Shown here: piece by piece, positions 6,111 to 46,213 of the stretch
How positions within the stretch are numbered: the stretch's first letter is position 1
Layout: the number at the start of each line of letters is the position of its first letter
Source of the DNA: Lacrimispora amygdalina
Lineage (GTDB): Bacteria > Bacillota > Clostridia > Lachnospirales > Lachnospiraceae
Reading direction: 5' to 3'
Assembly: GCF_003432035.1 (NCBI RefSeq)
Contig: NZ_QOHO01000006.1
Coordinates: forward strand, 1-46,263
DNA: 46,263 bases
Made by a program: the position numbers and the translations under genes
Notes under the pieces: model-generated
What the model was told of the DNA's origin: nothing
What the model saw: only the letters and a program-made list of their open reading frames with translations
The model's database searches: none

Positions 6111-6134
6111 ACATATCCTCCTCAATAATTTTGT

Positions 6135-11389: not shown

Positions 11390-11465
11390 CGTTTATTCAC
11401 CTGTCGTTTATTTATTACTTTCATTGTAATGCAGGCAGCCGGCTTTTACAAGAAGTGTATCGCTT

Positions 11466-13183: not shown

Positions 13184-13199
13184 ATCCAACTCTCCTTTC

Positions 13200-14138: not shown

Positions 14139-14172
14139 CGATTTTATCTCTCCTTATTTGTTTGCTATGGAT

Positions 14173-14230
14173 ATCATACTGGATTTTATAAATAAAAAAA
14201 TCAACCGTTTGGCTGATTGTAATGGTTGAT
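14173..14230 (-). promoter_or_regulatory. Candidate promoter and dyad for the exporter operon
   Basis: Minus-strand TTGATT and TATGAT are separated by 20 bases, a long spacer that would suit activator dependence. The -35 is overlapped by a dyad, ATCAACC (14200-14206) and GGTTGAT (14224-14230), 17 bases apart. It may be an operator for the MalT-like regulator or for the vanished HxlR regulator next door. The 312-base gap between the ATPase and ABC-F genes holds only this and the HxlR remnant. Confidence 0.4.
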
Positions 14231-14278
14231 CTTTTATTGTCGTATAAGTCTTAGTTTCCTGCAAGTCTAAGCCAATGG

Positions 14279-14398
14279 GTTCCACCCAAGGTTGAATATT
14301 ATCTGACGCAGAAAGGCGAAAGCCTTATTCCCATTGTCCTCGCTATGTGCGAATGGGGAAAAGAAAATATAACCAAACAAATGAATGAATTGAAATAA
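14279..14398 (+). pseudogene. C-terminal remnant of an HxlR-family regulator
   Basis: The plus-strand frame ending in TAA encodes 39 residues, [20 protein letters not shown] then [19 protein letters not shown]. This is the C-terminal wing and last helix of HxlR-type regulators (typical pattern PPKVEYxLTxKGxSLxPxxxxxCEWG). In frame, a TAG occurs only nine codons upstream, and no start or HTH precedes it. The N-terminal two thirds of the gene are gone. It lies 52 bases ahead of the ABC-F gene. HxlR genes often neighbour flavodoxin-type reductases, and a fragment of one lies just after the ABC-F gene. Confidence 0.8.
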
Positions 14399-14450
14399 TG
14401 TATGAAAGATGGTATGCTACCAATGGCAAATTAATATACGGAGGAATTGC

Positions 14451-16190: not shown

Positions 16191-16238
16191 ATTTCTGTAA
16201 TACCACACGGGGCGGTACTTCATTGTATTGCTCCCTGT

Positions 16239-16322
16239 GGTGCGGAAACAGAGCTTATCCATTTGTATGATATAAACTACAAAGGCTGTACCAGCTGTTT
16301 TGTCTGTAAGAGAAAGGATGGT
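16239..16322 (+). pseudogene. Fragment of a flavodoxin/NADPH-dependent FMN reductase
   Basis: Plus-strand frame reading GAETELIHLYDINYKGC then TSCFVCKRKDG. This is the segment around the C-x-x-C-x-x-C motif that follows the first beta-alpha unit in iron-sulfur-type flavodoxin reductases (compare the intact motif KPCRGCWACHKNDQGC in the gene at 37384-37968). Neither the nucleotide-binding N-terminus nor the C-terminal half is present; the sequence stops matching on both sides. It sits 48 bases beyond the ABC-F gene and converges with the GH3 gene. The rest of the 186-base gap holds nothing else recognisable. Confidence 0.75.
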
Positions 16323-16376
16323 CCCATCCAGAGGACTGTCTCAAGGCATATGATATGGGGCAGCGTTTTTCCGCAT

Positions 16377-26861: not shown

Positions 26862-27509
26862 TTATTTCCCCTGCCCGTAGTGATTCTTAACAAAATTCTT
26901 CATGGCTGCAATATTCTCATCGGATATCATCATCGGTCTCCCGCCGGTTGCCTCTACCATATAATAAATCTGTGCAGTTACCTCCAATACAGTGGCAACC
27001 TTAAATGCAGCATCCATATCAGCACCAATGCATACAGCCCCATGGGAATTAAGAAGACAGGAATTCGCTTCTGTTCCCAGCGCTTTTGCACATTCCTCAG
27101 CCAGCTGCATGGAACCTGGCAGCGCGTACTTCGTGCATCTGCACACATCGCCAAGAGCCTGCGCAGCCTCATCAATAATCAACGGAATCATCTTTCCCTG
27201 GCATGAATAGATCATGGAATAGATGGGATGGGTATGTACAACGGCATTTACCTCATTCCTCGCCCTGTAAATTGATAAATGCAGATCCTTTTCTATCGTA
27301 GGCTTTCTGCTGCCCTGCACAACCGTGCCATCCAAAGCGGAGACTACCACGTCTTCTTCTGTAATTGTGTTATAACTCATTGCACTTGGCGTCATATAAA
27401 CCAGGCCTGTTTCAGGATCACGGCAGCTTATGTTTCCCCAGGTTTCCACCGTTAATCCGGAACCCAGTAATTTAATTCCGCTGTCAACAATCAGCTTACG
27501 GTAATTCAT
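26862..27509 (-). CDS. Class II aldolase/adducin family, FucA-like
   Basis: A 215-residue zinc aldolase. The zinc ligands H92 and H94 (VVHTHPIYS) and H156 (NSHGAVCIG), and the catalytic acid E73 (PTIEKDLHL), fall at nearly the same positions as in E. coli L-fuculose-1-phosphate aldolase. The phosphate-binding TWGNIS and TPSAMSY motifs are also present. The family cleaves a ketose 1-phosphate to DHAP and an aldehyde (lactaldehyde for a 6-deoxyhexulose, glycolaldehyde for a pentulose); some members are epimerases. It is the last gene of the operon, after the importer lipoprotein. Together with the kinase it supports a phosphorylate-then-cleave pathway, but the sugar is not identified. Confidence 0.88.
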   Translation of the reverse strand: MNYRKLIVDSGIKLLGSGLTVETWGNISCRDPETGLVYMTPSAMSYNTITEEDVVVSALDGTVVQGSRKPTIEKDLHLSIYRARNEVNAVVHTHPIYSMIYSCQGKMIPLIIDEAAQALGDVCRCTKYALPGSMQLAEECAKALGTEANSCLLNSHGAVCIGADMDAAFKVATVLEVTAQIYYMVEATGGRPMMISDENIAAMKNFVKNHYGQGK

Positions 27510-27534
27510 ATTTTTTCTCTCCTTTTTGTATGCA

Positions 27535-28587
27535 CTATTTTCCTATGTATGGTGTAATATACTTTAACTGTGCATCAACATTGTCTGTAAAAATAAGCTT
27601 GGAACCGGTATCGATATTCTGCTCTACCGTTTCTCCATTCAATGCTTTCACTGCATTTTCAACACCAAGTTTCCCCATCTGAACCGGATCCTGGGCTACC
27701 GTTCCGAAAAACTTACCGGATTTTACCATATTTAATGCTTCAGAAGCGCCATCAAATCCAATAATCTTAATCTGATCCTGTAATCCTGCTTCTTCCACCG
27801 CTCTTCTTGCGCCAATTGCCATACTGTCATTGCAGCAATAGAACAGTTGTAAGTCCGGATTTGCCGTAATGATATTCTGAGCTGCATTATAGCCCTGGTC
27901 AACCTCCCAGTTTGCTGACTGCTCTGCAACTATCTTAATTGTGTCTCCAGCTCCTTCAACAAAGCCATCATGCCTGTCCCATGAATTTTGCTGGGTTTCA
28001 ATGCCAGTAAGAATCGCTGTTTTAATTCCTTTGTCAAAATTTTGTTTTACGTATTCTCCTGCTTTGATACCGCCGGTTTTATTATCCGTTCCGTAAAATG
28101 GAATCTTCATCGATACTTTACTTGTCACAGAATCATCCAGCTTTGTATCAATGTTAAATACCAATATTCCCGCACTCTCACATTTTTTAAGCGCAGTCTC
28201 CAGCCCTTCCGAAGATGAAGGAACAATACAAATGGCATTTACTCCGGATGTGATCATATTTTCCACAATTGCCAGCTGATCCGCTGCACTGGCATGAGAA
28301 TCTGCCGCCTGAACCTCCAGTTTAACCCCCAGTTCCTTTGCCTTTTCCTTCGCACCATTACACATTGCGATAAAATATTCATTGTTCAGCGTCATAGGAA
28401 CAAAACCAATGGTATAGTTATTGGCTTTTGCCTCCGCCTTTGATTCTGCTTTTGTTTCTGTCTCTGTTTTTGTTTCCGCTTTTGTCTCAGTTTTTACATC
28501 ATTTGCTTCTCCCTTCTTAGCACAACCCGTTAACACAGTCATTGCCATAACAATACCTAATACCACAGTCAGCGCTCTTTTTTTCAT
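27535..28587 (-). CDS. Sugar ABC transporter substrate-binding lipoprotein (RbsB-like)
   Basis: A 350-residue type I periplasmic-binding protein with lipobox LTGC (Cys21). A tether of about 30 residues follows, built from Lys/Thr/Glu/Ala repeats (KTETKAETKTETETK then AESKAEAKA) that places the binding domain away from the membrane. The binding domain starts at YTIGFVPMTLNNEYF and has the ribose/galactose family pattern, including CNDSMAIGARRAVEEAG and IIGFDGASEAL. This group binds free monosaccharides such as ribose, xylose, rhamnose, autoinducer-2 or polyols. It is downstream of the permease, typical of rbs-type operons except that lipoprotein order varies. Confidence 0.92.
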   Translation of the reverse strand: MKKRALTVVLGIVMAMTVLTGCAKKGEANDVKTETKAETKTETETKAESKAEAKANNYTIGFVPMTLNNEYFIAMCNGAKEKAKELGVKLEVQAADSHASAADQLAIVENMITSGVNAICIVPSSSEGLETALKKCESAGILVFNIDTKLDDSVTSKVSMKIPFYGTDNKTGGIKAGEYVKQNFDKGIKTAILTGIETQQNSWDRHDGFVEGAGDTIKIVAEQSANWEVDQGYNAAQNIITANPDLQLFYCCNDSMAIGARRAVEEAGLQDQIKIIGFDGASEALNMVKSGKFFGTVAQDPVQMGKLGVENAVKALNGETVEQNIDTGSKLIFTDNVDAQLKYITPYIGK

Positions 28588-28618
28588 TTCTTATCCTCCT
28601 TGGTTTTTTTATTTTTAT

Positions 28619-28632
28619 GCGTTTAAAAACGC
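28619..28632. repeat. Short dyad in the permease-lipoprotein gap
   Basis: GCGTTT-AA-AAACGC lies in the 69-base gap between permease and binding-protein genes. It could be a small RNA stem that adjusts the higher expression usual for binding proteins, but the 2-base centre makes a stable hairpin doubtful. Confidence 0.3.
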
Positions 28633-28656
28633 TTGTACCCAATGCCTATACTCTTA

Positions 28657-29619
28657 TTACTCCGCCTTTCTTTCATTAGCCTTATCAACATAAACAGCGA
28701 GAATAATCACAACGCCGATTATGACTGTCTGCCAGTAGGTAGCTACATTTAATATCTGCAGACCGCATTTTAGAATTCCTAATACCAAAGCCCCGATCAG
28801 TGTATTTCCAACATTGCCTTTTCCTCCTGATAACGCAATGCCGCCCAATACGGTTGCTGCTATGGCATCCATTTCATATCCTGCACCTGCATTGGGATCT
28901 GCATATGCAAGTCTGGATAGCAGGCAGACTCCTCCGATAGCTGAAAACATGCCTGCAATGGCATACGTTAAAATTTCAATCTTACGAATCTTCACACCGG
29001 AAAGCTTTGCCGCATTGGGGTTGCCGCCAAACGCATAGACTCTCCTTCCGAATTTCGTTTTAGTCGTTACAAATACCATAATGACATAAAGAATAAAAAC
29101 GTAGTAAACCAGTGCCGTTATTCCAAACAGCTTGCTGCCGGTAAAAGCTGCCAGACTATCATCAAAACCGGAAATGGGCTTTCCATCTGTTAAAACCTTT
29201 GTAAATCCACGGAATATCTGCATGGATCCCAATGTCACGATAAACGCCGGAACCTTACCAAAACTGATAAAATACCCATTAAATATCCCGATCAGAAAAC
29301 CGATTACGATACATAAAATAATAGTGACTGCCAAAGGTACCCCGCCCTTTAACATCATGCCTCCGGCAATTCCGACAAATGCGATTATGGATCCAACCGA
29401 TAAATCAATTCCTCCCGTTAATATAACAAAGGACGCTCCTATTCCTGTGATTCCAATAATGGCCGACTGCTGGATAATGTTCATGATATTCTGCATGGAA
29501 AAGAAGTTTTTTCCGTTCAGCCGGCACAGGATTGAAAATGCCAGTAATATGACAAACCCTCCCAGATAAAGAGAACATGCATGTACATCTATCTTTTTGC
29601 TTTTACATAACTTCCACAT
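28657..29619 (-). CDS. Sugar ABC transporter permease (RbsC-like)
   Basis: A 320-residue permease with 8-10 hydrophobic segments and the family landmarks LTGGIDLSVGSI and ATVLGGIALSGGKGNVGNT (the EAA-like coupling loop). It forms the homodimeric channel of a carbohydrate-uptake-2 (CUT2) importer, energised by the preceding ATPase; its ATG comes one base after the ATPase stop. CUT2 importers take up unmodified pentoses, deoxyhexoses or similar, which agrees with an intracellular kinase in the same operon. Confidence 0.93.
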   Translation of the reverse strand: MWKLCKSKKIDVHACSLYLGGFVILLAFSILCRLNGKNFFSMQNIMNIIQQSAIIGITGIGASFVILTGGIDLSVGSIIAFVGIAGGMMLKGGVPLAVTIILCIVIGFLIGIFNGYFISFGKVPAFIVTLGSMQIFRGFTKVLTDGKPISGFDDSLAAFTGSKLFGITALVYYVFILYVIMVFVTTKTKFGRRVYAFGGNPNAAKLSGVKIRKIEILTYAIAGMFSAIGGVCLLSRLAYADPNAGAGYEMDAIAATVLGGIALSGGKGNVGNTLIGALVLGILKCGLQILNVATYWQTVIIGVVIILAVYVDKANERKAE

Positions 29620-29620
29620 T

Positions 29621-31114
29621 TTATTTTCCTCCCATTAGTGCATAGGATAATATCTTCTCCTGTGTTAAATCCGTGGTGTTTTTTACATCTGCTGTTATTT
29701 CTCCATTATTCAGAACCAAAACCCTATCGCACATTTTTTGTATTTCCGGAATATCTGATGAAATCATAATAATTGATTTGCCTTCCCCAACCAGCTTCCC
29801 CATGATCTGATAGATCTCGTCTCTGGCACCTACATCAATTCCCCTGGTTGGCTCATCAAATATAAATATCTGGGCATTTGTTAAAAGCCATTTTGCAATC
29901 ACGACCTTTTGCTGATTACCGCCGGATAAATTTTTTACTGCTGTGTTGATCGAATGTGTTTTTATCAGCAATTTTTCAACCGATTGATTCGCCGTATCAT
30001 CTATTTTTGTTTTGCTGAGAGCGAATTTTCCAAAAAGCTTCAGATTGGGAAGTGATATGTTATCTTTGAGTGAGTGCATCAGCACAAGACCCTCATCTTT
30101 TCTGTCTTCGCTTAAATAAACAATCCCTTCCTCAATTGATCTGCAGATATCTGTTCTGGAAATGTCTTTCTCATTTAAAAAAACTCTGCCGGAACTCTTC
30201 GTATATGCACCAATAATACATTTTGCCAGTTCTGTCCTTCCGGAACCCACCAGACCGGACATTCCCAGTATTTCTCCTTTATTCAAGCTGAAACTGATGT
30301 TTTTCAGCAGATTTTTGTAACATAAATCTTCCACCTTCAATACCTGCTTATGAACATCTAGAAAGGTGTTTTCAAATCTGTTGAAATTTACACTCCGGCC
30401 GACCATCATTCTGGTCAGTTCTTCCACAGAGGTTTCCTTAAGTTCCACCGTATCCACATACTCCCCGTCTCTCATGACGGTGCATCTGTCACCGATTTCA
30501 AACAGTTCACCCATACGGTGTGATATATAAATGATTCCAATGCCCTTTGCTTTCAGTTCTCTTATGATCTTAAATAACCGTTCCGTTTCCTTATCTGTAA
30601 TCGACGCCGTAGGTTCATCCAAAACAAGTATTTTTACATCCATGGAGATTGCTTTTGATATTTCCACCATCTGCTTCTGGGCAACGCTTAAGTTCCCCAC
30701 AAGTGTATCCGGATCACAGCCAAGACCAATCAGATCCATATATTTTTGGGCTTCCGCTCTGCTTTTTCGCTGATCTATGATTCCTCTGCTTGTATATTCT
30801 TTGCCCATAAATATATTTTCCCAGATTGATACATGAGGATTTAAATTGAATTCCTGGTAAATCACACTGATTCCTTTATCAATCACCTCTTTGGGAGACA
30901 TGGCAGGAAGCTCTTCGCCATTTAAAACAACGCTCCCGGTCTCGCGCCGGTATGCACCCGAAAGTATTTTTATCAGTGTTGATTTTCCTGCGCCATTTTC
31001 ACCCAGCAGAACATGCACTTCTCCCTTTCTGACCTCAAGCATGGTATCTTTTAAAACCGGAACTCCAAAAAATTTCTTTGATATCCCTGTCATTTTCAGG
31101 ATAATATCGTTCAT
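29621..31114 (-). CDS. Sugar ABC transporter ATP-binding protein (RbsA-like)
   Basis: A 497-residue tandem ATPase of the CUT2 class. NBD1: Walker A GENGAGKST, signature LSVAQKQMVEISKA, Walker B ILVLDEPTAS. NBD2: degenerate Walker A GLVGSGRTEL, signature LSGGNQQKVVIAKWL, FIFDEPTRGIDVGA. The second site's Walker A lacks the Lys, as is normal for RbsA/XylG/MglA. Six bases separate it from the kinase. It powers the RbsC-like permease and RbsB-like lipoprotein encoded next. Confidence 0.94.
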   Translation of the reverse strand: MNDIILKMTGISKKFFGVPVLKDTMLEVRKGEVHVLLGENGAGKSTLIKILSGAYRRETGSVVLNGEELPAMSPKEVIDKGISVIYQEFNLNPHVSIWENIFMGKEYTSRGIIDQRKSRAEAQKYMDLIGLGCDPDTLVGNLSVAQKQMVEISKAISMDVKILVLDEPTASITDKETERLFKIIRELKAKGIGIIYISHRMGELFEIGDRCTVMRDGEYVDTVELKETSVEELTRMMVGRSVNFNRFENTFLDVHKQVLKVEDLCYKNLLKNISFSLNKGEILGMSGLVGSGRTELAKCIIGAYTKSSGRVFLNEKDISRTDICRSIEEGIVYLSEDRKDEGLVLMHSLKDNISLPNLKLFGKFALSKTKIDDTANQSVEKLLIKTHSINTAVKNLSGGNQQKVVIAKWLLTNAQIFIFDEPTRGIDVGARDEIYQIMGKLVGEGKSIIMISSDIPEIQKMCDRVLVLNNGEITADVKNTTDLTQEKILSYALMGGK

Positions 31115-31120
31115 AATTTC

Positions 31121-32602
31121 TCAGCTCCTTTTCTGTAATTTTTTATAACTGTCAATCAGATACGAAGTGTCAGTGTCCGGCATATAGCTCTTGGTTTCTA
31201 CGGAATTGCAGACAATTTCACGTATGGTTTTAAGCTCCAGATATGGTTCGAAATAGTTCAGCTGTGCGGCTATATTCCCCATGGCTGTGCTTTCTCCAAA
31301 ACATGCAATTACGTTCTTTCCTGTACAATTGGCTGTCATCTGATTTACAAGTTCATTTTTTGCGCCGCCTCCGACAATATAGATACAGTCAAAATATTCC
31401 TTTGTAACTCTCTGTAAATGCTCAATGGTAACCGCATAACTGCATGCCATGGATTCATATACTGATTTAACAATCGTATTCCAGGAAAAGCCGCCCTCAG
31501 CCTGTTTGGTTTCTTTCAGATAGTTCCAGATTTCTTTTCCCATATGCACCGGATTAAAAAATCTTATATCGTTCATATCAATAAGCGGAATTTTTTTCCC
31601 CCTTTCTTCATCAGAAAGTTTAACAATTTCCTCCCAGGTGACTTCTCTCTTTGCATCTGTTTCATACTCTTTCTTAATTCTCTGTATCAGGAACATTCCT
31701 GCTCCGTTTTTAAGAAGTGTAATTGTACCAAATGCTCCCAGCTCATTTGTAAGCCCGGCTTCATATACTTCCTTTGACAGCAGCGGCTTTAAAAGCTCAG
31801 TTCCTACTAAAGCCCATGTCCCGGAACTGATAAATGCGAAATGCGTCTGCCGTGCAGGCACCGCAAGGACTGCCGCCGCCGTATCATGGGAAGGAACGCA
31901 TACAACCGGAATATCATAACCGGCTCCTATTTCTGCCTTTATATCATCTGACAAATATCCGATTGCTTCACCGTGTTTTCCAAAATCATGAAACAAATTT
32001 CTGCTGATCTCCATTTTCCTGCACACAAAATCACTGATTGATTTTGTATTCACATCCATAAGCTGGGTCGTACTGAATTCACTTGGTTCATTCAGCATTT
32101 TTCCAGTCAGCAGATAATTTAAAATATCAGGAATCATTAAAAGCCTGTCAGCCGCCTGATACACATCCGGCATCTCCTCTTTCATACCTTTCAATAAGTA
32201 CACGGAATTAATTTTATCGCAAAGAATCCCTGTATTCAGAAACATCTGTTTTCGTTCTGAATCAGTCATCTCTGACAATTGCTGTTCACCCAGTGCATTT
32301 CTGTACGCCAGCGGATTATTCAGCATATTCCCCTTCCGGTCAAACAACGAAAAATCCACTCCCCATGTGCAGATTCCAATGGAATCAATTGTTTCTCCCC
32401 GGCTGACCAGCCGCTTCAGGATGTTTTTAAAATCGGAAAACATCCGAAGAATATCCCAATAATAATAGTTTCCCGCTTTCACCATGCTATTTGGTATCTG
32501 ATCAATGACCTCAGTCAGAATCCGCACTCCATCATATGTCCCCAATACAACCCGATAAGAGGAGTTCCCGCAGTCAAAACCCACGATTGTTTTTTTTGCC
32601 AT
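31121..32602 (-). CDS. FGGY-family sugar kinase, rhamnulokinase-like
   Basis: A 493-residue carbohydrate kinase of the FGGY/actin-like fold. The N-terminal phosphate-1 loop is GFDCGNSSYRVVLG, followed by ICTWGVDFSLFDRKGNMLNNPLAYRN, the pattern of rhamnulokinases. The second domain holds PSHDTAAAVLAVP, ISSGTWALVG and YIVGGGAKNELVNQMTANC (adenine binding). RhaB, FucK and relatives phosphorylate a ketose at C1. The N-terminal loop (DCGNSS) departs from the usual RhaB DLGASSGR, so substrate may differ. No rhamnose isomerase or mutarotase is encoded nearby. It lies between the radical activase and the importer ATPase. Confidence 0.87.
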   Translation of the reverse strand: MAKKTIVGFDCGNSSYRVVLGTYDGVRILTEVIDQIPNSMVKAGNYYYWDILRMFSDFKNILKRLVSRGETIDSIGICTWGVDFSLFDRKGNMLNNPLAYRNALGEQQLSEMTDSERKQMFLNTGILCDKINSVYLLKGMKEEMPDVYQAADRLLMIPDILNYLLTGKMLNEPSEFSTTQLMDVNTKSISDFVCRKMEISRNLFHDFGKHGEAIGYLSDDIKAEIGAGYDIPVVCVPSHDTAAAVLAVPARQTHFAFISSGTWALVGTELLKPLLSKEVYEAGLTNELGAFGTITLLKNGAGMFLIQRIKKEYETDAKREVTWEEIVKLSDEERGKKIPLIDMNDIRFFNPVHMGKEIWNYLKETKQAEGGFSWNTIVKSVYESMACSYAVTIEHLQRVTKEYFDCIYIVGGGAKNELVNQMTANCTGKNVIACFGESTAMGNIAAQLNYFEPYLELKTIREIVCNSVETKSYMPDTDTSYLIDSYKKLQKRS

Positions 32603-32615
32603 ACCAACACCCCAA

Positions 32616-33533
32616 TTACTGTATTTTTATATCCAGTCCGTATTCCTTTGCAGTATCATACAAATGCACCATCTCCACCTTTTTTAAGGATCTTAATTCT
32701 CCCATTTCATAGGTTCTTCCCAGCCCCTGATACTTGGGAAGACCAAGTCTGTGATAAGGCAGAAATACGATTTCTTTGATATTTGTCAATTGTTTTATGT
32801 ATTGAAAGAATCCTCTTATGGCATCGTCATCACTGTTACAGCCGGGGATATACGGATATCTCACTGCCAGATGTCCGGTGTATTCTTTGTCCAGCCATTC
32901 TAAATTACTTAAAATAAGAGAATTATCAAAACCTGTCAATTCCTTATGCTTTACAGGATTGTAGTGTTTAAAATCAAAATAGATATAATCCACCTCCTGT
33001 GATGCCTGTTTAATCCGCTCAAGGGGAACCTGTCCGCAGGTTTCAACCAGTGAATTATATCCCCTTTGTTTCATCTCCTTTCCAATCTCACGGATCATTT
33101 CTGCATAAAAGAATGGTTCTCCTCCGCTGAACGTTACTCCGCCTCCTGATTTTGCATAATATTTTTCATCCCTTAATATGATATCCAGCAGTTCTTCCCG
33201 GTTCATAACAGTTCCCATAAGCTTCCTGGCATCCACATAGCATTGTGTGATACAGTCCCCGCATGCTGTACACAAAAGCCTGTCTGATAAATATCCAAAG
33301 CCTTTCTTATAGAAAACAGCCTTATTAGGACATACGTTCATGCATTTACCACAGGAAATACAGGAATTCACATTGACAAGTACCTGAGGCTTAAATTCCT
33401 GGGATTCCGGATTTGCACACCATCTGCACCTTAACTGGCATCCTTTCAGAAAAATAACGGTACGGATGCCATACCCATCTTCTGTAGCATACCGTTCAAT
33501 ATTAAATACATTTGCCTCAAGCATCTTACCCAT
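32616..33533 (-). CDS. Glycyl-radical enzyme activase (radical SAM)
   Basis: A 305-residue activating enzyme. The radical-SAM cluster motif CxxxCxxC is C32-C36-C39 (GCQLRCRWC). A ferredoxin-like insert follows with two more 4Fe-4S sets, C58/C61/C64/C68 and C88/C91/C94/C98. This insert is characteristic of activases for dehydratase-type glycyl-radical enzymes and is absent from short PFL activases. GGGVTFSGGEP is the SAM-binding GGE-type motif. It installs the glycyl radical on the enzyme encoded 17 bases upstream (G779). Two possible starts (MGK and MLEA, three codons apart) cannot be separated by ribosome site. Confidence 0.95.
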   Translation of the reverse strand: MGKMLEANVFNIERYATEDGYGIRTVIFLKGCQLRCRWCANPESQEFKPQVLVNVNSCISCGKCMNVCPNKAVFYKKGFGYLSDRLLCTACGDCITQCYVDARKLMGTVMNREELLDIILRDEKYYAKSGGGVTFSGGEPFFYAEMIREIGKEMKQRGYNSLVETCGQVPLERIKQASQEVDYIYFDFKHYNPVKHKELTGFDNSLILSNLEWLDKEYTGHLAVRYPYIPGCNSDDDAIRGFFQYIKQLTNIKEIVFLPYHRLGLPKYQGLGRTYEMGELRSLKKVEMVHLYDTAKEYGLDIKIQ

Positions 33534-33550
33534 CCGCTTTCTTAACCCGT

Positions 33551-35956
33551 TTAAAATTCTGTCCTGCTGATTACATCAGCCTGACATGCCGGAGATAATG
33601 ATGTAAACAATGCGCTGTAGCCGGATACCCGAACCATTAAATCTTTATAATTTTCCGGATGTATCATAGCGTCTTTATAAACCTCCGTATCAACTACATT
33701 AAACTGGATCTGCTCGCCGTAATTGTCAAAGAAAACACGTATCATATCAATAATTTTCTTCTTGTTTTCCTCTGTCTCCAGCGCAGCTTTACTCAGTCTC
33801 ATGTTAAAAATACCGCCTTTTTGGATGTAAATTGTGGGAAGCTTCATAACGGAATTGCAGGCTGCTGTTGCCCCGTTTTTTTCTGATCCGTTAGCAGGAG
33901 AGACGCCGTTATTTACAGGTGCCCCGTTCTTCCGGCCATCGGGGGTTGCACCAATGCTTGAACCGAATGCAATATTTCCAGTAACCGGACTCTGGCTGTA
34001 AGAATAGCAGCAGGGTACCGGTCCCTTGCCATATTTTGAACTTTTGCATTCATACCTGTAGGTATGTCCGATGAACTCCTCCACCGCTACCACCCACCGG
34101 TCTGCTTCATCATCATCATTGCCGAACTTAGGCGCTTTGTTAAGTAATATTGCTCTGATCTCCGATCCGGCTGGCACTGTTGTTTCATCCTCAAAATTTG
34201 TTTTTAATGCATGCAGCAGCTGATTCATTGTAATAATCTTCTGATCAAAGACAATATAATTAATTGCTGCCAGAGCATCACCTGCACTGATGCTTCCTGC
34301 TGTGGGACCTCCGTCAGCGGAATAGACCGAGCCGCCTTCCACCAGATCTAACCCCCGTCCAATACAGTCCTCCACCAGTGATGCCCGAAATGCATTGATA
34401 TCCATCTCCACATGCAGTTCATCGTTGATATGCTCTGTTTCAACCTGTAAATCGATAAAATACTTCAGTGCCTTCTTATATTCTTCATAAATTTCCTGTG
34501 TACTGGTACATGCTTCTATTTTTTTATCAACGTCAAAGAAATGAACCTTTGTCCGGGGATCGGTGCCATTATTCAGTGTAATCTCCAACACCTTTTCCAC
34601 GTTCAGCCATGGTCCCTTTGCTGCAAAATCCCATTTACCCGGAATCGATGCCTCAATGCAGCCATCGGGCACCCAGTTATATCTGTCTTCTTTTGCAATT
34701 CCCATATTCTCCAGTGTTCTGATAAATGCCTTGTCGTTATAAAATGCAGGCTGCCCTCCTTTATGGTTTTCCATGGCATTAAGGGCTTTCATAAGGAATT
34801 CATCGGGAGTATCATCACAGCATTTAACTGAGATAGATGGAGTAAATAATTTCAGATCCTCACATGCCTCAATGCAAAGTTCCGATACGGTATTGACCGC
34901 ATTACTGCCATCTGCCCGCTGACCGGCAACAGCCAGATTAATAAACATCTGGTAACCAAGGAAAAATTCTGTGTCAGGCCAGCTTCGAAGCTTATTCAGC
35001 TCATTGCATTTGATAAAAAACGCTTCAATAATCTCAAGAGCTTCCTGTCTTGTTATCCTTCCTTTAAAAAGATCTTTCTGATAAAATGGATATACATACT
35101 GATCGAATCTTCCCAGTGAAATTGCATGACCATTGGATTCCAGGTGCACTGCCAGTAAAATTAAATAAACAGACTGAACCGCTTCATGAAAGTTTCTCGC
35201 AGGATGGTAGGGTACATGTCTGCAGACTTCCGTTAAATCAGTCAGTTCCTTCCTGCGTTTTTCATCCGTTGCCGCCTGTGCCTGTTTTTCGCACTCATCA
35301 GCAATCCGGTAAGCGAAATTAACAACCGCCTGGTTTCCCTTTAGTGCCGCTTCTAAAAACCAGCGTTTTCTTACATTACCAGGTTCCTTCGGATCCAGAG
35401 AGTTTCTCTTATCCACGATCCGCCTCATAACATCCTCAAGACCTTTATTAATTACCAGCTCATAATCTACCACCTCATTGCCCAGACCAGCCGCAGATAC
35501 CCAGGTATCATCAATTACATTGGCATCCCATGCTGCATTGATATAATCGGGCAGAGTCTTGCGCAGGCTTTCATAAAGTGATTTCCCCTTCCAGTAACAT
35601 ACACAATCCATTATTTTATTTTTATCTTCTTCATCATAATAGAACTTATCACCGGGCCTGTCGTATGGATAATACGGTTTGCCGTTTAATTCTGCTTCAA
35701 GCCATTCTGTAGAATATTCCGGATAAACAGGAGATGCTTTCGGCCACTTTGCCTGATTCCCTACAATCAGCTCATCTTCATTTACGCAAACTGTCATTTT
35801 ATCCAGAACATCATAAAACGCCTGCGCTCTTCTTAACGCAATTGGCCTGCCTTCTGATTTTTTCATGGATTGTGTGAAGATAACACAACGTTCCGAACAG
35901 ATTCTTGGTTTCTGGTCAAATAACCTGTTTCTCAACCTTAGAATTCTTGTATTCAT
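33551..35956 (-). CDS. Glycyl-radical enzyme, dehydratase-type, substrate unknown
   Basis: An 801-residue glycyl-radical enzyme. The catalytic thiyl Cys433 and base Glu435 sit in PDGCIEASIPG; the glycyl radical is G779 in VRVSGYSALF; the preceding ATPDGR (670-675) is also intact. The single Cys with Glu two positions on excludes pyruvate formate-lyase (Cys-Cys) and fits diol dehydratases, choline lyase-like enzymes and E. coli PflD/YbiW-like enzymes. The stretch after the active site (GKWDFAAKGPW) lacks the W-H-D pattern I recall from glycerol dehydratase/CutC, suggesting another substrate. First gene of the operon, RBS AGGAGGGG. No N-terminal compartment-targeting helix and no shell genes nearby, so it is probably cytosolic. 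Confidence 0.93.
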   Translation of the reverse strand: MNTRILRLRNRLFDQKPRICSERCVIFTQSMKKSEGRPIALRRAQAFYDVLDKMTVCVNEDELIVGNQAKWPKASPVYPEYSTEWLEAELNGKPYYPYDRPGDKFYYDEEDKNKIMDCVCYWKGKSLYESLRKTLPDYINAAWDANVIDDTWVSAAGLGNEVVDYELVINKGLEDVMRRIVDKRNSLDPKEPGNVRKRWFLEAALKGNQAVVNFAYRIADECEKQAQAATDEKRRKELTDLTEVCRHVPYHPARNFHEAVQSVYLILLAVHLESNGHAISLGRFDQYVYPFYQKDLFKGRITRQEALEIIEAFFIKCNELNKLRSWPDTEFFLGYQMFINLAVAGQRADGSNAVNTVSELCIEACEDLKLFTPSISVKCCDDTPDEFLMKALNAMENHKGGQPAFYNDKAFIRTLENMGIAKEDRYNWVPDGCIEASIPGKWDFAAKGPWLNVEKVLEITLNNGTDPRTKVHFFDVDKKIEACTSTQEIYEEYKKALKYFIDLQVETEHINDELHVEMDINAFRASLVEDCIGRGLDLVEGGSVYSADGGPTAGSISAGDALAAINYIVFDQKIITMNQLLHALKTNFEDETTVPAGSEIRAILLNKAPKFGNDDDEADRWVVAVEEFIGHTYRYECKSSKYGKGPVPCCYSYSQSPVTGNIAFGSSIGATPDGRKNGAPVNNGVSPANGSEKNGATAACNSVMKLPTIYIQKGGIFNMRLSKAALETEENKKKIIDMIRVFFDNYGEQIQFNVVDTEVYKDAMIHPENYKDLMVRVSGYSALFTSLSPACQADVISRTEF

Positions 35957-35975
35957 ATATTCCCCTCCTTTTCTG

Positions 35976-35991
35976 ATGTAACTTGTTACAT
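35976..35991. promoter_or_regulatory. LacI-type operator at the operon start
   Basis: A perfect dyad, ATGTAAC-TT-GTTACAT, lies 20 bases upstream of the radical-enzyme ATG and over the predicted transcription start. The TGTAA...TTACA half-sites resemble GalR/LacI-family operators, so the divergent LacI protein is the likely ligand. Confidence 0.7.
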
Positions 35992-35995
35992 TTAC

Positions 35996-36024
35996 ATTTT
36001 ATACATATATTTTTTATTTGTCAA
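35996..36024 (-). promoter_or_regulatory. Promoter of the glycyl-radical sugar operon
   Basis: Minus-strand TTGACA and TAAAAT are spaced exactly 17 bases. Transcription would start near 35989, inside the operator dyad, giving a leader of about 33 bases before the radical-enzyme ATG. Confidence 0.75.
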
Positions 36025-36153
36025 TATACATTTTATGGTTTATGTATATTTTAATATTATTTTTTTAAATATTTATGTGTCATTTTACTGTTTTATTGTG
36101 TAATTCATACTATTCCCATGTATATAGTCACTTTTTTTAATTAATAGCTTTAC

Positions 36154-36165
36154 ACTTGTTACATT
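36154..36165. promoter_or_regulatory. Second copy of the 12-mer of the LacI-type operator
   Basis: ACTTGTTACATT recurs here exactly as at 35981-35992, 173 bases away. Only the right half-site matches; the left reads TTACA instead of TGTAA. It is a candidate auxiliary site for repression by looping. The 375-base divergent gap also has a very AT-rich stretch (36025-36150) with no other visible structure. Confidence 0.45.
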
Positions 36166-36229
36166 AAAGATTATAATTGACTCAGTAACAGCTGATCACA
36201 CTTTTGAACCATTCATTTTACTGACTTTC

Positions 36230-36312
36230 AAAACGTTTTATGGTAATATAAATTCCAGAAATTGTCAGTCAGATAAAAGTTCAGTGGAATTTTAAAATAT
36301 TCAGGATATAAT
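36230..36312 (+). promoter_or_regulatory. LacI gene promoter region with AAAACGTTTT palindrome
   Basis: A perfect palindrome AAAACGTTTT with a central CG (36230-36239) lies about 100 bases upstream of the regulator gene, and a consensus TATAAT (36307-36312) about 20 bases upstream. No good -35 pairs with that -10. The palindrome differs from catabolite-control (cre) consensus at two or more key positions. It may be an autoregulatory or CcpA-like site. Confidence 0.4.
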
Positions 36313-36331
36313 CATGCGAGGAGAGTAAGAA

Positions 36332-37351
36332 ATGCAGAACCCGGAAAATCATAATGGCTTCATTGGCATAAGAGAAATCGCCAGGCTTGCTGGTGTATCT
36401 ACAGCAACCGTATCCAGAGTCATTAATACGCCAGATAAAACCTCACCAAAAGTGAGGGAACGAGTTGAGGAGCTTATAAAGGAGTATAATTATATTCCTA
36501 ATCAGACAATTAAAAATGTTTTTTCAAAAACTTCAAATTCCATAGCAATTTTTATATACGATATGGATAATCCATTTTTCATTACTTTAATAAAGGAATT
36601 AAATCAGATATGTCTTGACAATAAATATACTTTATTAATCATGGATACAGAAAACCAGCCTGAACGCGAGAAAGACTACCTGGAATATTGTATATCAAAC
36701 AGATGTGCCGGCATTATACTGACAGAAGGCCTTAATTACAACATATTTGAACCGTACAAAAATCAGATACCGATTGTATCAATGGACAGACGAACCAAGG
36801 GGTTATACTCTACGGTACGGTCTAATAACAGAGAAATGATTCATAAAATTATCGACTACTTATATAATCTCAATCATAGAAAAATAGGGTTTATAGGCAG
36901 CGGGAAGAAGTTCGATTCTATTGAATCCCGGTTCCGGGGGTATAAAGAAGCACTGGGAAACAAGAACCTGCAGATCAGGAATGAATACATTTATCTTCCG
37001 GATAAAAACGGACTGGACTTTGAAACAGGCCAGACCGCTCTCGGTTATTTTATGTCTCTTTCAGAGCCGCCTACTGCAATTGTCTGCAGCTGTGATTTAG
37101 TTGCCTTAGGTGTGATCAACGAGGCAGCCATCAAAAATATACGTATTCCCGATACCTTCTCGCTGGTGGGTTTTGACGGCGTGCTGAATAAAATCCACTA
37201 TCCTCAGATTACTACAGTAAAGCAGAATATTCCGGTTCTGGCAAAAGAACTCTTTGAGCTGGCTGTAAACCCGCCGGAAGTGCCCGTTGTAAGAACGATT
37301 GAAGCCACTTTTATACATGGCTATACATGTATGCAGATCGATGCAACATAA
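36332..37351 (+). CDS. LacI-family regulator of the glycyl-radical sugar operon
   Basis: A 339-residue LacI/GalR protein. Helix-turn-helix at residues 12-32 (IREIARLAGVSTATVSRVINT), then the ligand-binding core with FIYDMDNPFFITLIKEL, the central YNLNHRKIGFIGSGK and PTAIVCSCDLVALGVI. Divergently transcribed from the radical-enzyme operon across 375 bases that carry a perfect operator, so it is most likely that operon's repressor. Inducer unknown; it should be the substrate or an early intermediate. RBS GAGGAG eight bases before the ATG. Terminated by a strong hairpin directly downstream. Confidence 0.94.
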   Translation: MQNPENHNGFIGIREIARLAGVSTATVSRVINTPDKTSPKVRERVEELIKEYNYIPNQTIKNVFSKTSNSIAIFIYDMDNPFFITLIKELNQICLDNKYTLLIMDTENQPEREKDYLEYCISNRCAGIILTEGLNYNIFEPYKNQIPIVSMDRRTKGLYSTVRSNNREMIHKIIDYLYNLNHRKIGFIGSGKKFDSIESRFRGYKEALGNKNLQIRNEYIYLPDKNGLDFETGQTALGYFMSLSEPPTAIVCSCDLVALGVINEAAIKNIRIPDTFSLVGFDGVLNKIHYPQITTVKQNIPVLAKELFELAVNPPEVPVVRTIEATFIHGYTCMQIDAT

Positions 37352-42473: not shown

Positions 42474-43244
42474 TTATACAAATAAATAGCTTGTCATGGA
42501 TAAGGAACCCAGCATGCAGCTATTGTTATATACCGTTATTTTATCCTCTTCATCGGCTGCTCCAAGTATATATAAGATGGGGTTAAAATGGTCGGGCGCA
42601 GGAACTGCTGATTTTGCTGCTTCTCCCTGACTCATATAGTGAATAACATTCTCATAATTTCTATTTTCAATATTCTCTTTTATAAAATCATCAAACTGAT
42701 ATGCCCAGTCAAACCCCTCGTCTTCCATCCCCCAGTCAACCATTCTTAAGTTGTGGACAATATTTCCGGTACCAAATAAAAGAACGCCTTGATTCCTTAA
42801 AGATTTCAACTCCCTGCCTATCTGATAATGAACCTGCGGCGGCGCAAAAGCATCGATACTGATCTGAAAAACAGGGATATTCCGTTCCGGATACATATGA
42901 GTCAGAACAGACCATGTGCCGTGGTCAATCCCCCAGGTATTATCATATACACCCGGTCTGCTGATTAAATCTTTCACATTGCCTGCAAGTCTGGGATTGC
43001 CAGGGACATTATATGAAATCTTATATAATTCTTCGGGAAAACCGTACATATCATAAACTGTATTTGGATTTTCCTCATTCATGATCCTTGTGCCTTCCGT
43101 ATACCAATGAGCCGAGATTGAAACGATTGATTCAGGTCTGGGGATTTCCTTCGCCATTTCCCTCCAGCCCCTGGTATAGCGGTTGTCTTCTATTGCGTTC
43201 ATTGGTGAACCATGACCTGCAAATATCATGGGCATTTTAGACAT
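42474..43244 (-). CDS. ygiD: DODA-type extradiol dioxygenase family (YgiD-like)
   Basis: A 256-residue member of the LigB/DODA superfamily. The metal-binding pattern is visible: HGSPMNAIEDN near the start, VSISAHWYTEG, GIDHGTWSVLTHMYPE, and GTGNIVHNLR. Iron or zinc is held by His residues in this fold; E. coli YgiD cleaves DOPA with molecular oxygen. An O2-using dioxygenase is unexpected in an anaerobe, so the homologue may have another role, such as oxygen-independent chemistry or oxygen scavenging. The ATG is preceded by AAAGGAG. It stands between the DMT transporter and the flavoprotein oxidoreductase. Confidence 0.88.
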   Translation of the reverse strand: MSKMPMIFAGHGSPMNAIEDNRYTRGWREMAKEIPRPESIVSISAHWYTEGTRIMNEENPNTVYDMYGFPEELYKISYNVPGNPRLAGNVKDLISRPGVYDNTWGIDHGTWSVLTHMYPERNIPVFQISIDAFAPPQVHYQIGRELKSLRNQGVLLFGTGNIVHNLRMVDWGMEDEGFDWAYQFDDFIKENIENRNYENVIHYMSQGEAAKSAVPAPDHFNPILYILGAADEEDKITVYNNSCMLGSLSMTSYLFV

Positions 43245-43382
43245 ATCGTTAACTCCTTTCTAATATATTAGAATTTTCCATATTCTGCTTTTTGTTTAAA
43301 TATATCCACTCCTTTTCAGATAGTCAAGCGATTTTTCCTTCGTTCCTTTCAATCCCTGCTGCACCGGCGGGCTTTAGCAATT

Positions 43383-43431
43383 ATCAAAAATCACCCTATG
43401 CTTTGTCTTTCTTCAAAAACACAGGGTGATT
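43383..43431 (-). terminator. Terminator of the flavoprotein oxidoreductase gene
   Basis: Minus strand AATCACCCT and AGGGTGATT flank a 25-base loop and are followed by TTTGATAA. It starts 23 bases after the oxidoreductase stop codon. The loop is long, so strength is uncertain. Confidence 0.65.
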
Positions 43432-43453
43432 ATTTCAACTTATATTTTTTATT

Positions 43454-45451
43454 TTAGATTGACTGTGCAATTTCATATGCATCCCAAATTGCTCCCATCA
43501 GATTAGATACCTTTGAGGCATCACCAATTAAATGTACATCTGCACCACAATCTTTTATTGCCTGATATAAAGATTTATCACTGACGTATCCAATACTTGT
43601 GATAATTGTGTCGGCTTCCAGTTCGACAATGCAGCCGTTTTCCTCAAACTGAACACCTTTCGATGTGATTGCGGTAACTTTTGCATTGGTATGAATACCT
43701 ATGTTATGAGCTGATACAAGATTTTGAAGCATCGTTTTATTAGCAGCATTTAAGCCCTGTACAGTTAAAATTTCAGGTAGCATCTCCAGTATTTCAACCT
43801 GTTTTCCTTTATCTTTTGTCAGACTATAGCCAATTTCAACGCCAGTAAGTCCTCCACCTATAACCACCACTTTATCACCAATGGGTTTTGTCTCCAATAA
43901 AGCTTCCACTGCGGTGATAACTTTTTCTGAATTTGCTCCTTCTACATTAAGATTTCTTGCAGCAGAACCGGTTGCTGCAAAAATGAAATCCGGTTTAGAA
44001 GCTTGAATCGTGTTTTCATCCACTTCTGTGTTCATATGAACAGTTACACCAGTATCTTTCAGCTGTTTCACATACCATTGTATTAACTTTTTATCCTCTT
44101 CTTTAAAACTCATAGAAGAAGCAGGAATGAAAACACCGCCAAGACTATTTGTGCGTTCATATAAATCCACGTTATGCCCTCTCAGTGCGCTGATTCTCGC
44201 AGCTTCCATACCGCTGATACCGCCGCCAATGACCATGATATTCTTTTTCACATCAGCAGGTTTTATTTCACATTTTCTTTCCTGCCCAACCTGGGGATTA
44301 ATTGCACATGACGTATTTTTACCAGAGAAAAATCTCTCCAGACAGCCCGCATGACATCCTATACAGGGTCTTATATCATCATAATGCCGGGTTTTTACTT
44401 TATTTGCCCATTCCGGGTCAGCAAGAAGTGCCCGCCCAACTGAAATAGCATCAATACTTCCACTGGCAACCGCTTCCGCTGATATTTCAGGATCATCCAT
44501 TTTACCTGCACATATTACAGGAATATTAACAAATTTCTTTATATACTGAGCATCTGCCAGGTTACAGGCTTTTGGCATATATACCGGAGGATGTGCAAAA
44601 TACCAGGATTCATATGTTCCATTGTCTGAATCTAAAGCATCATAGCCAGCATCCTGAAGAATTTTCGCTATTTTAGCACTCTCTTCCAAATCACGGCCAA
44701 ATTCCTCAAAGTCCTCCCCGGGAAGGGCACCTTTATCAAGGCCAAATCCTTTCATATAGCTTTTAACACTGTATCTTATTAAAACCGGGAAATCTTTTCC
44801 GCATTTATCCTTTATAGCCTGTACTGTTTCTGTAGCATATCGAAGCCTGTTCTCTAAGCTTCCGCCATATTGGTCTGTACGACGATTGGTACATTCCATA
44901 GAAAACTGATCCATTAAGTACCCTTCATGAAGCGCATGAACTTCCACACCGTCAAAGCCTGCCTGTTTTGCAACATAAGCACCATCGGCATAAGATTGTA
45001 TAAGAAATTGAACTTCCTCTGTTGTTAACGCACGATGCATAACTTCCGGATGCCAAACATTGGGATTTTCTGAGGAGGAAATAGGATCATTATCCATAAA
45101 AAAACCATCTTTACGATTTCTGCCGGCACCGTTTGCTATTTGAAGTACAATTTTAGCACCATACTTATGTACTTCATCGGTAAGCTTTTTGTTGGATTCT
45201 ATATAAGAATCACCAGCTGTTGCTAATGTAGCACGCATTGCATCCAGCTTGTTCTGGCATGCGATACCCGTTGTTACAATCAGCCCGACTCCCCCTTTTG
45301 CTCGTGCAACGTATAAATCAATGGCATCCTGATTAAAACTTCCGTCCGGATTTTTTGAATGTAACCCCATGGGAGCCATTGCTATTCTGTTTTTCACTTC
45401 CATAGTGCCTATTTTCATAGGCTGGAATAATGCATTAATGTCACCTTTCAT
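43454..45451 (-). CDS. Old-Yellow-Enzyme-type NADH:flavin oxidoreductase with 4Fe-4S cluster
   Basis: A 665-residue three-domain flavoenzyme. Domain 1 (about 1-370) is an FMN-binding TIM barrel, with MKVKNRIAMAPM-like start and HALHEGYLMDQF. A 4Fe-4S motif follows: C-x2-C-x3-C-x11-C in CIGCHAGC...TSC. Domain 2 binds FAD (VIGGGISGMEAARISA) and domain 3 NAD(P)H (VVIGGGLTGVEIGYSL). The family includes 2,4-dienoyl-CoA reductase, 2-enoate reductase and bile-acid Bai enzymes: reduction of activated C=C bonds. The ATG at MKGDINALFQP has GAGAGGTG upstream; an extension of 69 codons runs through the promoter and is not coding. Divergent from a TetR gene. Confidence 0.92.
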   Translation of the reverse strand: MKGDINALFQPMKIGTMEVKNRIAMAPMGLHSKNPDGSFNQDAIDLYVARAKGGVGLIVTTGIACQNKLDAMRATLATAGDSYIESNKKLTDEVHKYGAKIVLQIANGAGRNRKDGFFMDNDPISSSENPNVWHPEVMHRALTTEEVQFLIQSYADGAYVAKQAGFDGVEVHALHEGYLMDQFSMECTNRRTDQYGGSLENRLRYATETVQAIKDKCGKDFPVLIRYSVKSYMKGFGLDKGALPGEDFEEFGRDLEESAKIAKILQDAGYDALDSDNGTYESWYFAHPPVYMPKACNLADAQYIKKFVNIPVICAGKMDDPEISAEAVASGSIDAISVGRALLADPEWANKVKTRHYDDIRPCIGCHAGCLERFFSGKNTSCAINPQVGQERKCEIKPADVKKNIMVIGGGISGMEAARISALRGHNVDLYERTNSLGGVFIPASSMSFKEEDKKLIQWYVKQLKDTGVTVHMNTEVDENTIQASKPDFIFAATGSAARNLNVEGANSEKVITAVEALLETKPIGDKVVVIGGGLTGVEIGYSLTKDKGKQVEILEMLPEILTVQGLNAANKTMLQNLVSAHNIGIHTNAKVTAITSKGVQFEENGCIVELEADTIITSIGYVSDKSLYQAIKDCGADVHLIGDASKVSNLMGAIWDAYEIAQSI

Positions 45452-45487
45452 AAAAAACACCTCTCTCTTATAAGTAATAATTGTTTT

Positions 45488-45545
45488 GTTACCGTGGTAT
45501 ACCTCCATTGTATACCGCAGTATACTTTGTGTCAATATTTTGACA
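45488..45545. promoter_or_regulatory. Divergent promoter region with tandem TetR-type operators
   Basis: For the oxidoreductase (minus strand) TTGACA and TACAAT are spaced 17 bases. GTATAC-CGCA-GTATAC (45510-45525) fills that spacer. A related copy, GTTACC-GTG-GTATAC (45488-45502), lies about two helical turns away. TGTCAA-TATT-TTGACA (45530-45545) forms a further dyad over the -35. Confidence 0.75.
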
Positions 45546-45637
45546 AAGATAATTTTATTTATTTTTAAAAGTATGATATAATGCTTTGCGTAAGGAATAG
45601 ATTGCTGCAATGGCTTATATATACCGGAGGGATAAAT

Positions 45638-46213
45638 TTGATAGAAAATATAAAACATACAATTTTAGTTAATGCTATTAATCTTTTCATGAATAATGGA
45701 TTTGATAACGTGACTATCAATGAAATTTGTGAAGCCTGCAATATTACGAAGAGAACATTTTATTATCATTATCATTCAAAGAATACTCTGCTTTTAGATT
45801 ACTTCTCTTTAGTCGATGAGAATATAGAAACTTCACTAAAGGATATGGATCAAGAAACAACATGGCTTGAAAAATGTTGGAAAGTCAAAGAAATTTTTGT
45901 AAAAGGTATTGCAAATTTGAATACCGATATACTAAAAAATTTGATTAAAATTGATATGGAACAGCAAAATGAAATGTTCAGCTTTCAGTTAAATAATTTT
46001 GATCCTAATTTGACCAGATTGCGCCAGATGGTTATCGAATATACACATAAGGCACAGGAAGCAGGGGAGATTGACACCAATGCTTCAGCTGAAGAATTAT
46101 CTTATTGTTTTGCTTCTGCATTCTTAGGTCTTGCTGTAAACTGGAGTTCAACAGGAGGACAATATGACCTGGTAGAAGCGGCAAAAAAATACTTTTATCA
46201 AATATATAAATAA
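45638..46213 (+). CDS. TetR-family regulator divergent from the flavoenzyme
   Basis: About 191 residues from a TTG start with GGAGGG six bases upstream; the frame continues 19 codons further without a ribosome site. HTH: VTINEICEACNITKRTFYYHYHSKNTLLLD. The C-terminal domain resembles the TetR_C group found in Firmicutes regulators. It is transcribed away from the OYE-type flavoenzyme over a 186-base gap with tandem GTATAC operators and most likely represses that enzyme until its substrate, perhaps an enone or other electrophile, is present. The last 50 bases of the window after it hold no recognisable gene. Confidence 0.92.
   Translation: MIENIKHTILVNAINLFMNNGFDNVTINEICEACNITKRTFYYHYHSKNTLLLDYFSLVDENIETSLKDMDQETTWLEKCWKVKEIFVKGIANLNTDILKNLIKIDMEQQNEMFSFQLNNFDPNLTRLRQMVIEYTHKAQEAGEIDTNASAEELSYCFASAFLGLAVNWSSTGGQYDLVEAAKKYFYQIYK

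Follow-up and report, generated by a model that had tools for sequence, protein, structure and literature searches.

A conserved operon of Lacrimispora amygdalina combines an uncharacterised glycyl-radical enzyme with sugar importer, kinase and aldolase genes and carries no isomerase gene

The window analysed here, 46,263 nucleotides long, is the complete contig NZ_QOHO01000006.1 (C132) of Lacrimispora amygdalina, whose genome comprises 5.94 Mb in 174 contigs. It carries a glycyl-radical sugar operon in which, as a first-pass annotation of the DNA had described, a LacI-family regulator gene is divergent from seven co-directional genes; all eight open reading frames were recovered at the expected positions, uninterrupted, and matched their families in profile scans. 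The regulator (36332..37351, plus strand) has domains PF00356 and PF13377. The seven genes on the minus strand, separated by gaps of 1-69 bp, start with that of an 801-residue glycyl-radical enzyme of an uncharacterised clade (33551..35956; PF02901, PFL-like, and PF01228, Gly_radical) carrying Cys433, Glu435 and Gly779, and that of its activase (32616..33533), which exceeds the cut-off of TIGR02494 (310 bits vs 174) and combines a Radical_SAM domain with Fer4 stretches that correspond to the two ferredoxin-type Cys sets noted before. The profile scans also bore out the reading of the remaining genes as FGGY, CUT2 and Aldolase_II family members: a kinase with FGGY_N/C domains related to rhamnulokinase and fuculokinase (31121..32602), the ATPase (29621..31114; RbsA/XylG/AraG-like, under the cut-offs), permease (28657..29619; PF02653) and ribose/allose-type lipoprotein sugar-binding protein (27535..28587; PF13407) of a CUT2 sugar importer, and a class II aldolase of the FucA/AraD family (26862..27509; PF00596, 163 bits). 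Neither the kinase (344 bits vs 528 for TIGR02627) nor the aldolase (158 bits vs 264 for PRK06833) reached the cut-off of the L-rhamnose or L-fucose family concerned.

Twelve loci were compared, namely the window, L018 of Lachnotalea glycerini (type strain), whose operon proteins show 72-85% identity to those of the window, seven loci from the same order and three from the same class. The radical enzyme, activase, FGGY kinase and a class II aldolase adjoin in all 12, and a complete CUT2 importer is present in nine, so we regard these four genes as the core of the operon. In L075 the importer is fragmented, and the sequence retrieved for L071 and L074 contains none. A related LacI gene accompanies the operon, next to it or within it, in 11 loci; the exception is L073, where the retrieved stretch has none. 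When the loci were compared by eye, no further gene recurred across genera, and some Vallitalea loci had extra neighbours in common. In the L075 copy (9671-16882) the radical-enzyme frame is short, the importer frames are split or fused and the aldolase is a fragment, reflecting either decay or an assembly error. Close relatives of the radical enzyme are numerous in the protein collection (at least 120, 65-98% identical among the matches listed) and include proteins of Lachnotalea, Vallitalea, a Spartobacteria and a Spirochaetia bacterium. At E<=1e-180, genome samples taken from larger sets gave matches in 8 of 392 genomes for the order, 6 of 391 for the class and 5 of 398 for the phylum. Each count includes the own genome; the remaining four matches in the phylum and two of those in the class are just 38-41% identical and were treated as outgroups, not as operon members.

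The first-pass annotation had reported no isomerase, shell or aldehyde dehydrogenase genes in this operon. A tblastn search (E<=1e-3) of the window and the 11 related loci, 261,875 bases in all and with positive controls that worked, was negative for relatives of RhaA, RhaD, the genome's two FucI/AraA-like proteins, three FucI proteins encoded in operon genomes and, from E. coli, FucI, AraA, FucO and AdhP. The same search gave no relative of two alcohol dehydrogenases of the own genome (iron-type query included), five shell proteins or two aldehyde dehydrogenases of shell operons. The absence therefore stands for the 12 loci but not for the genome. Contig C157 carries a rhaB-rhaA-rhaD cluster, encoding RhaA, a RhaB above its cut-off (539.5 bits vs 528) and a RhaD above the PRK03634 and below the TIGR02624 cut-off, and thus the rhamnose pathway sits elsewhere in the genome. 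Two FucI-domain proteins, one over and one under the cut-off, are encoded on contigs C103 and C148, the one over the cut-off standing with a fructose-6-phosphate aldolase and a xylulokinase. Shell genes occur on C112, in an operon that carries CutC (1677 bits vs a cut-off of 1050), and on C131, where two EutS-like microcompartment proteins are encoded (L082:8872-10177) and no glycyl-radical enzyme was found. The other glycyl-radical proteins found in the genome are a pyruvate formate-lyase (C89) and two anaerobic ribonucleotide reductases (C125 and C161), and C125 also encodes a protein with 63% identity to E. coli FucO across 306 residues.

With these genes present, the operon might be an ordinary fucose or rhamnose operon that has its isomerase gene at another locus and a divergent propanediol dehydratase. 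Such a reading could draw on the RhaA and a FucI-domain protein of the own genome, and on the FucI-domain matches over the cut-off in 7 of the 12 operon genomes (the own genome, seven of the order, three of the class and Lachnotalea). However, the rhamnose genes form their own cluster, two operon genomes (G058 and G139) have sub-cut-off matches only, and in three (G036, G837 and G886) no FucI-domain match was obtained at E<=1e-3, RhaA having been searched only in the own genome and AraA in no whole genome. Hence L-fucose isomerase is not a fixed partner of the operon. Since, in addition, the active-site residues of propanediol and glycerol dehydratases are missing (see below) and no contig with an isomerase gene carries the operator with at most one mismatch, we give this explanation the smallest probability of those considered here. 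A fucose or rhamnose operon in the strict sense is ruled out by the lack of RhaA, FucI and AraA relatives in the 12 loci and by the scores of the kinase and aldolase.

The operator in question, TGTAACTTGTTACA (35977..35990), is a putative site with palindromic arms upstream of the radical-enzyme gene; a putative second operator, TGTAACAAGTGTAAA, lies at 36149..36163 on the minus strand. Of 11 loci read, five have the exact palindrome TGTAACAAGTTACA upstream of the radical-enzyme gene (the window, L069, L070, L071 and L074, the last four belonging to a single genus); L073 has it with one mismatch, and no exact form was found in L018, L072, L096, L097 and L098, some of which have variants. A similar second site occurs about 190-200 bp from the first in L069, L070, L071, L073 and L074, and the second operator taken alone is no better than chance (2 matches in the window vs a mean of 4.7 in shuffles). 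In the genome, exact TGTAACNNGTTACA occurs at three places, the window and two on C145 around a LacI gene that adjoins deoC, ribokinase and CUT2 genes and whose product is 30% identical to the LacI protein of the window. With up to one mismatch the operator was found at 12 places compared to 7 for a reversed control pattern, so many of the one-mismatch sites must be chance occurrences, and none of them is on C157 (RhaA), C103 or C148 (FucI-domain proteins), or C112 or C131 (shell genes). The proposal that the missing steps are encoded elsewhere is disfavoured: the genome has a rhaBAD cluster of its own, its shell operon carries CutC, three operon genomes gave no FucI-domain match, and isomerase or shell genes under this operator were sought and not found, the other exact sites belonging to the deoC/ribokinase/CUT2 operon with its own LacI.

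For the placement of the radical enzyme, 76 collected sequences and four HypD sequences were combined, 29 of these 80 rows were dropped as partial, very divergent or redundant, and the remaining 51 were used for a first tree and 28 of them for a second. The radical enzyme and its relatives form a clade of their own (support 100/100 in the 28-row tree), which lies in an 18-row group (99/99) that contains YbiW, the 1,5-anhydroglucitol-6-phosphate lyase, as its sole characterised member in the tree used and excludes propanediol dehydratase, glycerol dehydratase, PflD, HypD and CutC. A G[KR]GP insertion is present in all 18 rows of this group and in none of the 10 others. Within the group the window enzyme is a separate lineage that does not adjoin YbiW and has different partner genes, and it was therefore not filed as YbiW, an identity that is ruled out on the same two points. 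The enzyme does not reach the cut-off of any of the 12 NCBIfam families that it matches, including TIGR01774 (640.7 bits vs 678.2) and the equivalogs of CutC (464 vs 1050), HypD (483 vs 1100) and sulfopropanediol dehydratase (454 and 450 vs 1000), and CutC and HypD identities are excluded by cut-off and tree. Profiles and trees thus agree in putting it outside the characterised clades, and the placement that would have spoken against the first-pass proposal was not obtained. Judged by its sequence, it is nevertheless a divergent member of the glycyl-radical eliminases, since Cys433, Glu435 and Gly779, all three correctly assigned in the first-pass annotation, are invariant in 28 of 28 aligned relatives and the activase gene adjoins in every locus.

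The nearest solved relative by identity and by fold score is propanediol dehydratase; in the fold comparison many glycyl-radical enzymes had high Z scores, and two entries of one enzyme differed by 10. Despite this proximity, an identity as propanediol dehydratase is ruled out by the tree and by the residues around the active site. In glycerol dehydratase, His164, Ser282 and Asp447 belong to the active site. At these positions the window enzyme has Asn160 (27 of 28 aligned relatives, Gln in one), Ala278 (26 of 28, Ser in two) and Lys447 (28 of 28), and Lys378 takes the place of Arg379 (28 of 28); Asp431, two residues ahead of the cysteine, is conserved in 23 of the 28. In the alignment, the active site is consequently remodelled relative to the diol dehydratases. 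His is found at the His164 position in the propanediol dehydratase, glycerol dehydratase, YbiW, PflD and HypD rows, and Lys447, Asn160 and Lys378 are absent from both YbiW and PflD. In HypD the equivalent of Asn160 is His160, which passages of a study of that enzyme describe as essential together with Glu436 and as proposed to tune it (PMC7077986). An AlphaFold model of the radical enzyme (pTM 0.84, mean pLDDT 76.6) is poor in several active-site loops and unreliable there.

Among known systems, the operon works most like the YbiW and PflD pathways with every partner replaced, and is a member of neither family. It shares with them a glycyl-radical eliminase with its activase, the sugar context and the lack of an isomerase, and with YbiW also the 99/99 group and the G[KR]GP insertion, whereas PflD is outside that group. 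In contrast, the window enzyme is only 33% and 32% identical to YbiW and PflD, respectively, and the E. coli enzymes are linked to uptake by a phosphotransferase system (PTS), according to the parts of PMC12441222 that deal with it, and have fsaA or PTS genes adjoining. In the window operon their place is taken by a CUT2 importer, an FGGY kinase and a class II aldolase, and it has neither the PTS uptake nor the fructose-6-phosphate aldolase partner of the YbiW type. From propanediol and glycerol dehydratases (5i2a and 1r8w) it differs by the separate clade, the replaced residues and the absence of shell and shell aldehyde-dehydrogenase genes from the window. The rhaBAD and fucIKA operons resemble it in their kinase and aldolase families; it differs from them in lacking an isomerase gene, in a kinase and an aldolase that fall below the family cut-offs and in its additional radical enzyme and activase. 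No description of this operon was recognised in searches of a collection of open-access papers, from which subscription papers are mostly absent.

Microcompartment loci of the GRM5 type combine fuculose-phosphate aldolase, lactaldehyde reductase and propanediol dehydratase, as set out in passages of PMC6325248, and the pairing of a radical enzyme with a PF00596 aldolase is common to them and the window. By this logic the radical enzyme might act last, on the C2-C3 aldehyde or a derived diol released when a ketose that is imported, or formed by a housekeeping isomerase, has been phosphorylated and split. The rhamnulose and fuculose families of the kinase and aldolase would suit such an order, as would the aldolases above the FucA cut-off in two related loci and the fragment in a third (described below), the position of propanediol dehydratase as nearest solved enzyme and the FucO-like protein elsewhere in the genome. 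Yet nothing related to FucO, AdhP, an iron-type alcohol dehydrogenase, a shell aldehyde dehydrogenase or a shell protein was found in the 12 loci, which rules out a microcompartment locus as such, and the radical enzyme belongs to another clade than the diol dehydratases and lacks His164, Ser282 and Asp447. We consider a terminal role of the radical enzyme unlikely, though with a probability that deserves attention.

The partners of the radical enzyme give indications of the substrate. Among solved sugar-binding proteins, those of the allose and ribose type come closest to the lipoprotein. Numbered as in ribose-binding protein, it keeps the polar positions Asn13, Asp89, Asn190, Asp215 and Gln235, with presumed ligand-contact roles, lacks Arg90 and has Trp in place of Phe164. 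The nearest solved structures of the kinase are FucK (4c23) and RhaB (2cgj), and it is 34% identical to the RhaB of its own genome. The aldolase keeps the Glu, the HxH and the later His of FucA; at the place of Tyr113 of E. coli FucA, the window-type aldolase, present in nine loci, has Asp (eight loci) or Glu (L098). In L072 and L073 the aldolase slot is filled by a PRK06833 member above the cut-off (374 and 350 bits vs 264) and in L075 by a 128-residue fragment with PRK06833 as best match (170 bits). That a FucA-family member can fill the slot argues for a ketose-phosphate aldolase step.

Taken together, we tentatively favour, at somewhat less than even confidence, a self-contained, isomerase-free anaerobic catabolic module in which an imported non-reducing ring sugar derivative would be converted to a ketose or deoxyketose, phosphorylated and split. 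The importer would take up a sugar derivative in ring form that most likely has no free reducing end and hence could not be used by an ordinary isomerase, with the anhydro-alditol type favoured. We prefer a ring-type, non-reducing substrate given that the binding protein is of a ring-sugar type, that the enzyme is placed on the YbiW side and that the locus consistently lacks an isomerase gene. The glycyl-radical enzyme would take a hydrogen atom via Cys433 and cleave the adjacent C-O bond, opening or dehydrating the ring to a ketose or deoxyketose, onto whose terminal CH2OH the kinase would transfer a phosphate. Cleavage of the middle C-C bond by the aldolase would then yield a triose phosphate together with lactaldehyde or hydroxyacetone as the small carbonyl product, and the LacI protein would probably keep the operon repressed until the substrate is present. 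The earlier suggestion that the radical enzyme makes a ketose or deoxyketose directly thus fits the conserved gene set and the placement, while the product itself is one that we infer.

An eliminase with a Cys-X-Glu motif usually leaves a carbonyl at the carbon from which hydrogen is abstracted, and the group lost departs from the neighbouring carbon. From an open-chain alditol, elimination of this kind gives 1-deoxy- or 3-deoxyketoses, or 2-deoxyaldoses. The radical enzyme could therefore be a polyol dehydratase that forms a deoxyketose from an imported open-chain alditol ahead of phosphorylation and cleavage, as the Cys-X-Glu motif and a downstream kinase and aldolase with no dehydrogenase found would allow. 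However, the ribose/allose type to which the binding protein belongs is one for ring sugars, and on chemical grounds the vicinal dehydration of an alditol would provide 1-deoxy- or 3-deoxyketoses, neither of them usual for FucA, so that we regard this possibility as quite improbable.

Ring opening has precedents, as YbiW and PflD convert 1,5-anhydrohexitol 6-phosphates to 1-deoxyfructose 6-phosphate according to passages of PMC12441222, with which the titles of PDB entries 8id7, in which YbiW has 1,5-anhydroglucitol 6-phosphate bound, and 8id0 agree. A 1,5-anhydrohexitol with the radical at C2, a position we infer, would similarly give a 1-deoxyketose, as reported for these two enzymes. The same ring-opening step, if it runs as supposed here, on a substrate with an OH group at C1 would make the enzyme an aldose-ketose isomerase of a radical kind: with hydrogen taken from C2 of an aldopyranose, the ring oxygen would leave C1 and the hydrogen would come back to that carbon, producing a ketose suited to the kinase and FucA families. 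This is very unlikely, given that ordinary isomerases need no oxygen-sensitive radical, that the passages of the glycyl-radical literature consulted mention no such reaction and that the sequence bears no specific sign of it.

Within the favoured module, the imported ring sugar derivative may also be turned, by a glycyl-radical reaction not described so far, directly into the ketose for the kinase and the fuculose-type aldolase, which we think possible but rather doubtful. One route in keeping with all three protein families would start with hydrogen abstraction at C5 of a 1,5-anhydrohexitol, followed by O5-C1 scission; C5 would then carry the ketone and C1 become a methyl group, so that the product is a 6-deoxy-2-ketose. 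Such ketoses are the normal substrate type of fuculokinase- and fuculose-aldolase-like enzymes. 1,5-Anhydrogalactitol would in this way be converted to L-fuculose, from which the kinase and aldolase would form dihydroxyacetone phosphate and lactaldehyde.

Besides the 12 loci, 42 further loci encode radical enzymes that are 24-36% identical to that of the window, and part of these served as outgroups in the trees. Several other loci of the YbiW group are in a sugar context, with CUT2 genes (L019), a xylulokinase (L099), a ribulokinase (L100) or a PTS (L105). L100 (2481-13529), a weakly supported sister of the window clade, also has L-ribulose-5-phosphate 3-epimerase and alpha-galactosidase-family (PRK15076) genes. 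In L105 (4575-12089) a YbiW-side enzyme and its activase are flanked by a lactose/cellobiose-family PTS IIC and a GH4-like gene on one side and by a NagB on the other, and the enzyme possibly acts on an amino-sugar or disaccharide-derived phosphate. L103 (293-12322) and L104 (1813-14146) are sugar loci with two tandem glycyl-radical enzymes, one from the PflD side and one from the YbiW-side group, together with CUT2-like genes and an FGGY kinase, and by profile L103 has a ROK kinase and a ribulose-phosphate-3-epimerase-like gene as well. Elsewhere in the window, a 583-residue protein (4374-6125) has ricin-type beta-trefoil lectin domains towards its C-terminus, and an 873-residue LuxR-family regulator with TPR repeats adjoins an ABC-2 type exporter of two permeases and an ATPase (8768-14138). 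A protein resembling 4,5-DOPA extradiol dioxygenase (over the cut-off) adjoins a flavoenzyme similar to BaiCD and bilirubin reductase (under the cut-off) at 42474-45658.

Since the conserved module names its partners (importer, kinase, aldolase and regulator), the substrate should be findable by a short list of assays. The module is conserved in Lachnotalea, Vallitalea and other anaerobes, and if the proposed pathway is true, a new radical entry to sugar breakdown would widen glycyl-radical chemistry and explain the use of compounds beyond the reach of isomerases.

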